Shown piece after piece: positions 3,021 to 5,305 of a stretch of DNA of 64,000 bases. This DNA is from Pseudofrankia inefficax (GTDB lineage Bacteria > Actinomycetota > Actinomycetes > Frankiales > Frankiaceae), in contig NC_014666.1 of the NCBI RefSeq assembly GCF_000166135.1, positions 496,001 through 560,000 on the forward strand. The letters are read 5' to 3'. Below the pieces are notes generated by a model that was not told the DNA's origin, did no database searches, and saw only the letters and a program-made list of their open reading frames with translations. Positions within the stretch are counted from its first letter, which is position 1. Every line of letters starts with the position of its first letter. The position numbers and the translations under genes are program-made.

Positions 3021-4262
3021 TCAGCCGTCACCGTCGGTGCCAAGCGCGACGGCCCGGCCGATGAGGTAGCGCCGCTCGGGGATGCTCGCGGTCAGCGCCG
3101 CGGCCTGCCGGTAGTCGGCCGCGGCCGCGTCCCGGTCGCCCGCCCGCTGCCTGAGGTGTGCCCGGGTGGCCAGAATCCGGTGGCTTCGCGCCAGGCGGCC
3201 GTCGGTCTCCAGCGAACTGACGATGTCGAGCCCGGCCGCGGGCCCGTGCACCATCGCGACCGCGACCGCCCGGTTCAGCGTCGTCATCGGGTTCGGCGCG
3301 GCGCGCTCCAGCAGGTCGTACAGGGCCAGGATCTGCGGCCAGTCGGTCTCGTCCATCGTGGGCGCCTCGACATACACAGCCGCGATCGCCGCCTGGAGCT
3401 GGTATGGCCCGACCTTGCCGACGGGCAGCACCTGGGAGATCAGGGCTAGACCCTCGGCGATCAATGCTGAGGTCCACAGCGACCGATCCTGCTCGGCCAG
3501 CGGGACCAGGGAGCCGTCACCGCGCGTGCGCGCCGGGCGTCGCGCGTCGGTCAGCAGCATCAGGGCCAGGAGCCCCGCCGTCTCACCGTCCGCGGGCAGC
3601 AGCCGGCGCAGCAGGCGGGTGAGCCGGATGGCCTCGTCCGACAGGCTCGGCACCATCAGGTCGGCGCCCGTGGTCGCGGTGTAACCCTCGTTGAAGATGA
3701 GGTAGAGGACGTGCTGCACCGTGCTCAGCCGTTCGCCCGCCGCCCGCCCGGGCATCTCCAGGCGCCGCCCGCCCGCCTCGATCGTCGCCTTCGCGCGGCT
3801 GATGCGTTGCGCCATCGTGGTTTCGGGCACAAGGAATGCCCCGGCGATCTGGGTCGTCGTCAGCCCGCCCACGGCGCGCAACGTCAGCGCGATCTGACTC
3901 GGCGTGGACAGCGACGGATGGCAGCACAGGAAGAACAGCTCCAACGAGTCGTCGTGCTGGCCAGCCTCGTGGAGACCGGCGAGCGCCTGCGACTGCGGCG
4001 TCGAGGCGTACGCCGCCTCCTCCCGCCGGCGCCGCGAGCCGTCCCGGCGTAGCTCGTCGACCAGAACGCGGTACGCGACCGTCTGTAGCCAGCCGCCAGG
4101 GTTTTCCGGGATCCCGTCGGTCGGCCACCGCCGCGCTGCCTTCAGCAGCGCCTCCTGGGTGGCGTCCTCGCAGGCGTCGAACCGGCCGTAGCGGCGGGTG
4201 AGGACACCGAGGACCTGCGGCGCCAGCTCACGCAGCAGGTCCTCGATGCGTGCATCCGTCAT
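3021..4262 (-). CDS. ECF42-type RNA polymerase sigma factor with C-terminal TPR-like extension
   Basis: 413 aa, about twice the length of an ordinary ECF sigma factor. Residues 1-175 carry region 2 (ACEDATQEALLKAARRWP, with PGGWLQTVAYRVLVDELRR) and region 4 (LTLRAVGGLTTTQIAGAFLVPETTMAQRISRAKATI). The remaining roughly 240 residues form the helical TPR-like extension typical of group ECF42, including FNEGY, LTRLLRRLLP and LNRAVAVAMVHGP. The group has no anti-sigma factor; the extension is thought to control activity. It lies 18 bases downstream of a DGPF/YCII gene, the family's hallmark partner, and both are read from an ECF42-like promoter at 4722-4748, so the operon is probably autoregulated. 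Start ATG at 4262. Confidence 0.95.
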   Translation of the reverse strand: MTDARIEDLLRELAPQVLGVLTRRYGRFDACEDATQEALLKAARRWPTDGIPENPGGWLQTVAYRVLVDELRRDGSRRRREEAAYASTPQSQALAGLHEAGQHDDSLELFFLCCHPSLSTPSQIALTLRAVGGLTTTQIAGAFLVPETTMAQRISRAKATIEAGGRRLEMPGRAAGERLSTVQHVLYLIFNEGYTATTGADLMVPSLSDEAIRLTRLLRRLLPADGETAGLLALMLLTDARRPARTRGDGSLVPLAEQDRSLWTSALIAEGLALISQVLPVGKVGPYQLQAAIAAVYVEAPTMDETDWPQILALYDLLERAAPNPMTTLNRAVAVAMVHGPAAGLDIVSSLETDGRLARSHRILATRAHLRQRAGDRDAAAADYRQAAALTASIPERRYLIGRAVALGTDGDG

Positions 4263-4280: not shown

Positions 4281-4643
4281 TCAGGCGTCGTTCGCCGACT
4301 CGTGCAGGATCGGCCAGACCTCGGTCGGGTTCTGGTCGGCCCAGGGCATCTCCGCCGCGAGCTCGTAGGCCCGCTCCTCGTTCTCCACGTCGACCAGGTA
4401 GAAGGTGGCCATGTACTCCTTGGTCTCGAGGAAGGGGCCGGCGGTGACGGTGGGGAGACCGTCCTTGCGCGTCACCAGCCTCGCCGCCGCGGCGTCCGCC
4501 AGCCCGTACCCGCCGAGCAGTTCGCCGGTAGCCGCGTACTTCTTGTTGTAGGCGTCCTGCTTGGCGATCTCGCTCGGCCAGTCCTCGGCCGGGATGCTGT
4601 CCCACTTCTCCTGGTTGCCGTAGATCATCAGCAGGTACTTCAT
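4281..4643 (-). CDS. YCII-related DGPF-domain protein, ECF42 partner
   Basis: 120 aa, small cytosolic alpha/beta-barrel fold of the YCII/DGPF family. It opens with MKYLLMIYGNQEKW and carries AGPFLETKEYMATFYLVD, where the name-giving DGPF reads AGPF, followed by a C-terminal PWADQNPTEVWPI strand. DGPF proteins are coded next to ECF42 sigma factors in many actinobacteria; their biochemical role is unknown. The ATG at 4643 has GAGAGGAA about 9 bases upstream; the frame extends further back without a ribosome site and across the promoter, so I rejected the longer form. First gene of the DGPF-sigma operon. Confidence 0.93.
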   Translation of the reverse strand: MKYLLMIYGNQEKWDSIPAEDWPSEIAKQDAYNKKYAATGELLGGYGLADAAAARLVTRKDGLPTVTAGPFLETKEYMATFYLVDVENEERAYELAAEMPWADQNPTEVWPILHESANDA

Positions 4644-4721
4644 CGCGGGTTCCTCTCGGCGGTGGTTCGCGGCCCCGGCGGGCCCCCTCGGCGCGGCCGG
4701 TGGGCGCGCGCTCACCCAGGA

Positions 4722-4748
4722 GACGGAGCCACGCCGCCGATCTCGACA
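4722..4748 (-). promoter_or_regulatory. ECF42-type promoter for the DGPF-sigma operon
   Basis: On the minus strand TGTCGA (4748 to 4743) is followed after exactly 17 bases by CGTC (4725 to 4722). From memory, this matches the published ECF42 consensus (TGTCGA at -35, CG[A/T]C at -10). The DGPF start codon is about 80 bases downstream. Suggests autoregulation by the sigma factor in the same operon. Confidence 0.8.
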
Positions 4749-4788
4749 TGCCTCTCCCGAGCTTTCTCGTGACGGCTCGCGGGATCGA

Positions 4789-4815
4789 TGTCGAGATGTG
4801 CCCGGCGGCGCCGTC
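4789..4815 (+). promoter_or_regulatory. ECF42-type promoter for the DUF6069 gene
   Basis: On the plus strand TGTCGA (4789-4794) is followed by 17 bases and CGTC (4812-4815), the same sequence and spacing as the divergent promoter. The two -35 regions form the 10-bp arms ATCTCGACAT (4740-4749) and ATGTCGAGAT (4788-4797). The DUF6069 start codon is 43 bases downstream. Confidence 0.8.
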
Positions 4816-4858
4816 ATCCGGTCGAAGGCACCTCCCCTCGACCGGCCAGGAGAACCGC

Positions 4859-5305
4859 ATGTCCACCTCGTCCATCTCCACCCGTCCCTCCGCCGCGTTT
4901 CTCGCGCGCCGGCCTGTCTGGCAGGTCAGCTACCTCGCCGGCCTCGCCGCGAGCGTCGTCGTCGAGCTCTGGGGACTGGCCGCGCGCATCGTCGGCGTGC
5001 CGATGAGGGCCGCTGGTCTGGGCTCGCATCACGCCACACCGATCACGGTCGGCATGTTCGCCATGGGAACCATGGTCGTCACGTTCTGGTTCACCTTCGT
5101 CGTCGTCCTGATGGCCCGCTTCGCCAAGAGCCCCGCGCGGACCTATCTCCGCACGACGGTGCCGCTGCTCGTCCTCTCGCTCGTCCTGCCGATCACGGCC
5201 GCGGACACGGCACTGACGACCGGGCTCACTCTCGCCGCCGCGCATCTGATCGCCGCGGCGATCATCATTCCGACGGTCCGGCGCCGGCTCTCGCAGCCGC
5301 GGTGA
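4859..5305 (+). CDS. DUF6069-like four-helix membrane protein
   Basis: 148 aa with four predicted membrane helices: around residues 20-42 (YLAGLAASVVVELWGLAARIVG), 60-86 (ITVGMFAMGTMVVTFWFTFVVVLMA), 97-113 (TVPLLVLSLVLPI) and 120-140 (LTLAAAHLIAAAIIIPTV). Length and pattern fit the actinobacterial DUF6069 family, whose function is unknown. The ATG at 4859 has AGGAG 6 bases upstream. It lies divergent from the DGPF/ECF42 operon and has its own ECF42-like promoter, so it is likely a regulon member whose membrane role belongs to that response. Calling the family is from pattern memory; the topology is visible directly. Confidence 0.85.
   Translation: MSTSSISTRPSAAFLARRPVWQVSYLAGLAASVVVELWGLAARIVGVPMRAAGLGSHHATPITVGMFAMGTMVVTFWFTFVVVLMARFAKSPARTYLRTTVPLLVLSLVLPITAADTALTTGLTLAAAHLIAAAIIIPTVRRRLSQPR

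Follow-up and report, generated by a model that had tools for sequence, protein, structure and literature searches.

ECF42 sigma factors are abundant in actinobacteria, and to our knowledge both the signal they respond to and the function they protect are an open question. In the genome considered here, an ECF42 operon stands back to back with a gene for a DUF6069 membrane protein, and the region between them raises the question whether that protein belongs to the output of the sigma factor. The arrangement and its comparison with other genomes make it quite likely that two facing promoters of the ECF42 type serve the DGPF-ECF42 genes and the DUF6069 gene, and that DUF6069 is a coordinated ECF42 output whose promoter class matches that of the adjoining sigma factor.

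The locus and its paired sites

The window, meaning the whole 64-kb stretch of DNA analyzed, covers positions 496001-560000 of a genome that consists of one contig of 8,815,781 bases. The DUF6069 gene, on the plus strand, diverges from the DGPF and ECF42 genes on the minus strand across a gap of 216 bp, with the following features (window coordinates):

3021-4262, minus strand: ECF42-type sigma factor, 413 aa (Pfam PF20239, E 2e-36, with PF04542 and PF08281; class-B clade of the ECF42 tree)
4281-4643, minus strand: DGPF/YCII-domain protein, first gene of the operon, ahead of the sigma gene (Pfam PF03795, E 7e-11)
4650-4655, minus strand: GAGGAA, likely Shine-Dalgarno sequence of the DGPF gene, read from the sequence
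4722-4725, minus strand: CGTC, -10 core of the predicted DGPF-ECF42 promoter, extended GGCTCCGTC (sequence and class-B matrix)
4740-4797, no strand: perfect 10-base inverted repeat, ATCTCGACAT (4740-4749) and ATGTCGAGAT (4788-4797), from the sequence
4743-4748, minus strand: TGTCGA, -35 element of the predicted DGPF-ECF42 promoter, extended TGTCGAGA (top class-B site of the window, 21.4)
4789-4794, plus strand: TGTCGA, -35 element of the predicted DUF6069 promoter, extended TGTCGAGA (ranked second among class-B sites, score 16.4; retained in the sister genome G339)
4812-4815, plus strand: CGTC, -10 core of the predicted DUF6069 promoter, GCGCCGTC (sequence, class-B matrix and G339 comparison)
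4848-4852, plus strand: AGGAG, likely Shine-Dalgarno sequence of the DUF6069 gene, read from the sequence
4859-5305, plus strand: DUF6069 protein, 148 aa (Pfam PF19545, E 5.6e-26)

The sigma protein carries regions 2 and 4 followed by a DUF6596/TPR-type C-terminal extension (Pfam), a part that ECF42 factors reportedly need for activity, and groups with other PF20239 sigma factors, as expected of ECF42, and a YCII/DGPF gene lies immediately upstream, as in 56 of 61 other ECF42 loci. Only 18 bases lie between the DGPF reading frame, ending at 4281, and the start of the sigma frame at 4262, and the two genes presumably form one operon. The DUF6069 protein scores 91.6 bits against a curated family cut-off of 27.2. 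These identities from Pfam agree with those of a first-pass annotation, made from the sequence alone, which had also placed the DUF6069 gene correctly at 4859. None of seven neighboring proteins scanned with Pfam belonged to an anti-sigma family; a control role for DUF6069 is conceivable even so. At 489-1939 of the window, genes for a short-chain dehydrogenase and a TetR-family regulator are also divergent.

ECF42-dependent promoters have the consensus TGTCGA..CG[AT]C. Between the two transcription units, TGTCGA-N17-CGTC occurs exactly at 4748-4722 on the minus strand and at 4789-4815 on the plus strand, which bears out the first-pass claim of the same hexamer, spacer and -10 core on both strands of one gap; both sites have the geometry TGTCG[A/G]-N17-CG[AT]. 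The inverted repeat is formed by the two facing -35 elements, whose TGTCGA 5' ends are 40 bases apart. From the plus site to the DUF6069 ATG there are 70 bases, close to the distance at other loci.

The bare core is a poor guide. TGTCGA-N15..19-CGTC has four matches in the window where 1.86 are expected from shuffles, and 12 of 100 shuffles reach four; only two of the four have an N17 spacer, both in the DUF6069/DGPF gap. Across the genome, TGTCGA-N16..18-CGWC gives 527 matches (reversed control, 175), and this uninformative scan was dropped as evidence. Since the core is so common, the sites were compared with the DGPF promoters of other ECF42 operons.

Promoter classes and sigma clades

In 36 of the 56 loci with an upstream DGPF gene, that gene is preceded by TGTCG-n-N16..18-CG[TA]. 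Sites at the usual gene distance were required for training, and pattern matches outside -125 to -60 (L002, L204 and L263) were kept out; the 33 sites retained were picked allowing N16-18, and all 33 are N17. They fall into two classes: class A, TGTCGATCC..CGTTCG[AT] (fuller form TGTCGATCCG..CCGTTCG[AT]), and class B, TGTCGAGAA..GGCTCCGAC (fuller form TGTCGAGAAC..CGGCTCCGA). The classes were first recognized by eye and the training sets then split by sigma clade, 26 sites outside it (A) and seven inside (B), so that the agreement of class and clade among training sites is partly by construction and held-out loci provide the fair test.

A tree built from 79 ECF42 proteins places the window sigma inside a 14-row clade (support 100/100) with the sigma factors of B-type loci. 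In all six held-out members of this clade, the best class-B site lies at -77 to -80 of the DGPF gene, with scores of 18.1 (L002), 21.6 (L006), 8.5 (L181), 22.7 (L185), 19.3 (L195) and 14.6 (L199). Outside the clade, none of 43 loci reaches a class-B score of 16.4, and just one combines a class-B score of 12 or higher with a lower class-A score; among the class-A training sites, that of L179 scores higher as class B. Sigma clade and promoter class agree.

Both window sites carry the extended bases of the clade of their own sigma factor, the plus site less strongly than the training sites. Their class-B scores are 21.4 (minus) and 16.4 (plus), against class-A scores of 2.4 and -1.6; the plus site thus falls below the left-out class-B training sites (20.9-31.9) but within the range of the held-out loci (8.5-22.7). 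At the position of the window's CGT, all seven class-B training sites read CGA, and a strong class-B site carrying CGTC occurs in L095 of genome G196. This L095 site (G196:C3, near 5412, class-B score 27.0) apparently precedes a YCII-ECF42 pair and lies 3' of a co-directional DUF6069 gene that has no site of its own.

The class-B matrix, trained on other genomes and including no window site, ranks the minus site first and the plus site second of 127,950 positions in the window, the third scoring 12.4. In simulated sequence, scores of at least 16.42 were found 95 times in 39.9 million positions, a rate that gives a chance of about 5e-4 for one strand of the 216-bp gap and some 42 expected sites of the plus-site level per genome. 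Real loci, with the first 9,300 bases of the window included, hold four sites reaching 16.4 in 1.67 million positions: the two window sites, the DUF6069 site of G339 and the L095 site. The pattern TGTCGAGA-N14-CCGWC, written after the class-B sites had been seen and with W chosen to admit the T of the window, has three matches in 8.8 Mb (reversed control, one), two of which are the window pair. The third, at 166305, lies within a long same-strand reading frame in L013. Of the genome-wide motif scan that the first-pass annotation had proposed, the bare core thus proved not diagnostic, while the extended class-B pattern singles out the pair.

The source genome encodes seven ECF42 factors, and up to 16 were counted across 78 genomes; as 76 of these 78 have ECF42, its presence was ruled out as a contrast for lack of power. 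The paralogue closest to the window sigma, with 62% identity, belongs to L002 in the same genome (G000:C1:3029644), where the class-B site of the DGPF gene is only a variant, CGTAGAGAA.., at -79. The two factors may overlap in their targets, to judge from these sites.

DUF6069 loci in other genomes

DUF6069 was found, at E values up to 0.001 and with at most ten candidates scored per genome, in at least 143 of 393 genomes of the class. The less biased set of loci comprises 101, namely the window and 100 of the 103 best-listed places (G284:C265, G262:C27 and G358:C72 were skipped), each with about 4 kb on either side where the contig allowed. A divergent DGPF-ECF42 pair adjoins DUF6069 in five of these (the window, L088, L094, L101 and L107), and DGPF alone in L108. 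Upstream of DUF6069, 14 of the 101 loci have a class-A or class-B site with a score of 12 or more, as compared with 13 of 2,020 approximate dinucleotide shuffles, and 18 of 101 have the plain pattern, as compared with 74 of 1,810 random windows. Inspection of other DUF6069 loci, also suggested by the first-pass annotation, therefore shows that the sites recur. Eight of the 14 site-bearing loci lack both a complete ECF42 operon and an adjoining DGPF; one of them, L153, retains a scrap of the sigma gene.

Another 31 named loci were fetched by scanning genome contigs with five DUF6069 proteins, which had been picked for an adjoining DGPF or DGPF-ECF42, so that the linkage rate among the 31 is biased; four of them appear to be records of the seeds themselves. 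They come from Nocardioides, Marmoricola, Tsukamurella, Micromonospora and Rugosimonospora, and from metagenome-assembled genomes (MAGs) of Frankiaceae, Frankiales, Pseudonocardiales and Nocardioidaceae. ECF42 is present in 17 (one cut by the contig end), DGPF without a visible sigma factor in nine (in two of these the contig ends too soon to judge), and neither in five. The DUF6069 site scores at least 10 in 28 of the 31, always as class A, the others being L214, L222 and L234. Both sites reach 10 in 23 of the 26 loci with a close divergent DGPF, the window included. Divergent DUF6069/DGPF-ECF42 arrangements with class-A sites are seen in Nocardioides, Tsukamurella, Micromonospora and Frankiaceae MAGs. 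Most facing gaps measure 29-63 bp (91 in L215, 220 in L208 and L210), and spacers other than N17 occur at the DUF6069 loci L219 (N16) and L214 (N18). The DUF6069 gene of a Frankiales MAG (L212, 6001-6420) is interrupted by a stop codon within the matched frame and was left out of the alignments.

On the sequences compared, the DUF6069 site appears to share the promoter class of the adjoining sigma factor, B in the window and A in Nocardioides and Tsukamurella. The DUF6069-linked sigma factors form two separated groups, that of the window and a 17-row class-A group, joined in none of 200 bootstrap trees. Site-bearing DUF6069 proteins fall into one 41-row group of moderate support (93/70), in which 38 rows are labeled promoter-bearing, a label given to all named relatives kept, including three scoring under 10, and from which L154 and L212 are absent; the three rows without a site are L102, L118 and L160. 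The data are compatible with two histories: a separate origin of the class-B site in the Frankia lineage, or a switch of class by an older class-A site once DUF6069 had come to adjoin a class-B sigma factor. Very probably, given these comparisons, DUF6069 is an ECF42 target that stands beside two different ECF42 subgroups.

Sites also persist where the operon is scattered or lost. A strict class-A pattern has 16 matches in eight of nine genomes (reversed control, none), and most precede a DGPF, DUF6069, ECF42 or RibD_C gene; the exceptions are L267, with a cut DGPF only, and L274 and L279, with no clear gene. In G287, taken as Nocardioides currus, no sigma gene lies within 4 kb of a divergent DUF6069/DGPF pair. 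Elsewhere in that genome a lone ECF42 gene (L277, 1501-2815), which has no DGPF upstream and a class-A site of its own 91 bases ahead of the ATG, encodes the sister of the DUF6069-linked sigma factors in the tree. In G365, taken as Nocardioides silvaticus, DUF6069 and DGPF lie on different contigs, each with a class-A site, and the DGPF resembles the linked ones by eye. The sister genome G339 has lost the DGPF-ECF42 genes apart from a sigma gene remnant but keeps the DUF6069 site, with the -35 element and CGTC identical to those of the window and six of 17 spacer bases changed. This is the only orthologous promoter found, and its TCGTC misses the strict class-B pattern (no matches in G339; reversed control, three). 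G339 retains six ECF42 genes, a paralogue among which could use the site. The persistence of sites where sigma factor or DGPF is elsewhere or deleted speaks for regulation and against a mere side effect of gene order.

Two further observations concern the same scans. Two Nocardioides genomes have class-A promoters ahead of genes for RibD_C reductase-like proteins (L272, 1569-2141, in G045; L275, 896-1468, in G365), and these sites suggest a wider ECF42 regulon. In G339, L268 (G339:C203:80384) has a class-A promoter, an intact DGPF and then an apparent ECF sigma gene, and in the source genome the same locus (L267, G000:C1:1919205, minus strand) is cut to the promoter and about 50 DGPF codons; the two sister genomes have each lost a different ECF42-type operon.

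The comparisons also bear on other explanations of the pair. The minus site might be a genuine ECF42 promoter and the plus site weak or proper to another sigma factor, with DUF6069 expressed mainly from elsewhere. The score of the plus site below all class-B training sites fits this idea, as does L102, in the tree the nearest relative of the window DUF6069 outside the genus, which has no site. It is nonetheless an improbable account: the plus site is second only to the minus site in the 64 kb, its elements were kept in G339 while the spacer changed, and its distance from the ATG is the customary one. As to another sigma factor, ECF41 sites carry TGTCACA, as at S. meliloti SMb20029 in the available text of PMC6180224, unlike TGTCGAGA.

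Divergent genes often share one operator, and the perfect dyad ATCTCGACAT/ATGTCGAGAT could be read as such a site for a repressor or activator common to both genes, with the CGTC boxes incidental. Elsewhere, however, the conserved blocks are the -35 element and CGTTCGT at N17, with no palindrome and a varying facing gap, and the same signature occurs singly upstream of DGPF and of unlinked DUF6069 genes, so that an operator is an improbable explanation too. Finally, that a short motif fell twice into one gap by chance, as the frequency of the core might suggest, is hardly credible with two of only three extended class-B matches of the genome located here and the architecture recurring in other families. 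The back-to-back ECF42 promoters of the first-pass annotation are thus supported by the clade-specific extended signature and by recurrence in other genera; the core hexamers on which they had been proposed were insufficient.

The DUF6069 protein and known ECF42 systems

Under the reading of two facing ECF42-type promoters, RNA polymerase with the sigma factor encoded at 3021-4262, or with a close class-B paralogue, would recognize both. The minus promoter would drive DGPF-ECF42 leftward, which predicts positive autoregulation from the sequence of the site, and the plus promoter would drive DUF6069 rightward, co-induced with DGPF.

The first-pass description of DUF6069 as a four-helix membrane protein is in keeping with hydropathy and with low-confidence AlphaFold2 models (two, pTM 0.37 and 0.56), four helices being predicted at 20-44, 64-88, 92-113 and 119-144. 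By hydropathy, charge and model, the protein is hydrophobic, its helices have basic ends and its tails are short, with no sizeable soluble domain. Foldseek returned no match for the first model and none below E 1 for the second, and a PDB sequence search gave three matches at E 0.21-0.66, taken as chance. A Pfam scan of DUF6069 gave no match to a soluble anti-sigma domain. Four hydrophobic helices without a soluble domain make a classical anti-sigma role unlikely on the models, and 25 of 41 ECF42-positive genomes (among 60, at most ten candidates scored in each) have no DUF6069 match, so that DUF6069 is not an obligate partner. As a speculation of rather low probability, DUF6069 might be the missing membrane-side component of ECF42 systems, which senses or relieves membrane stress, feeds back on the DGPF or TPR part, and was adopted separately by two subgroups with different promoter codes.

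A conserved membrane-protein target, with a promoter class matching whichever sigma subgroup adjoins, offers a concrete gene for probing the role of ECF42, and with promoter classes in step with the sigma tree, the regulon of each ECF42 paralogue could be predicted from sequence.

In some ECF systems, a membrane anti-sigma gene adjoins the sigma gene and is co-regulated from the sigma factor's own promoter. The window resembles these in having a membrane-protein gene next to the sigma gene, at a predicted sigma promoter, and differs from them in that DUF6069 lacks a soluble anti-sigma domain and is often absent from ECF42 genomes. ECF42 factors with DGPF/YCII partners reportedly include Sven_0747 of S. 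venezuelae, among others. The literature searched, which did not extend to the S. venezuelae ECF42 paper or the 2021 ECF classification, contained no mention of DUF6069, and no ECF42 target of this type is named in the available portions of PMC8999054, PMC8103513, PMC9205884, PMC6180224, PMC11256431 and PMC7730460.

The ECF42 factor RpoE10 of S. meliloti has promoters with mapped starts, TGTCGG-N17-CGTC, at SMc01149 and SMb20475, and in the accessible part of that report it activated other targets and not its own YCII-rpoE10 operon (PMC6180224), a point against the autoregulation predicted for the window. The targets beyond DGPF given there, local and in trans, are glyoxalase-like, hydrophobic-ligand-binding or of unknown function; the N17-CGTC geometry is that of the window, and none of these targets is named DUF6069 (PMC6180224). 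The two S. meliloti promoters have class-A scores of 7.9 and 8.2 and class-B scores below zero, from which it follows that neither matrix can be transferred to that phylum. S. meliloti transcription begins 9 nt downstream of CGTC, provided that the final base printed marks the start (PMC6180224), and by analogy starts are predicted near 4713 (minus) and 4824 (plus) in the window.

A close likeness is to the ECF42 factors described in the available text of PMC8999054, in which sigma regions 2 and 4 are joined to a TPR-type extension and a YCII gene lies in the neighborhood. The window sigma has the same regions, extension and YCII neighbor; what sets it apart from that account, in which the YCII gene is the only neighbor named, is a divergent DUF6069 membrane gene in a common control region.
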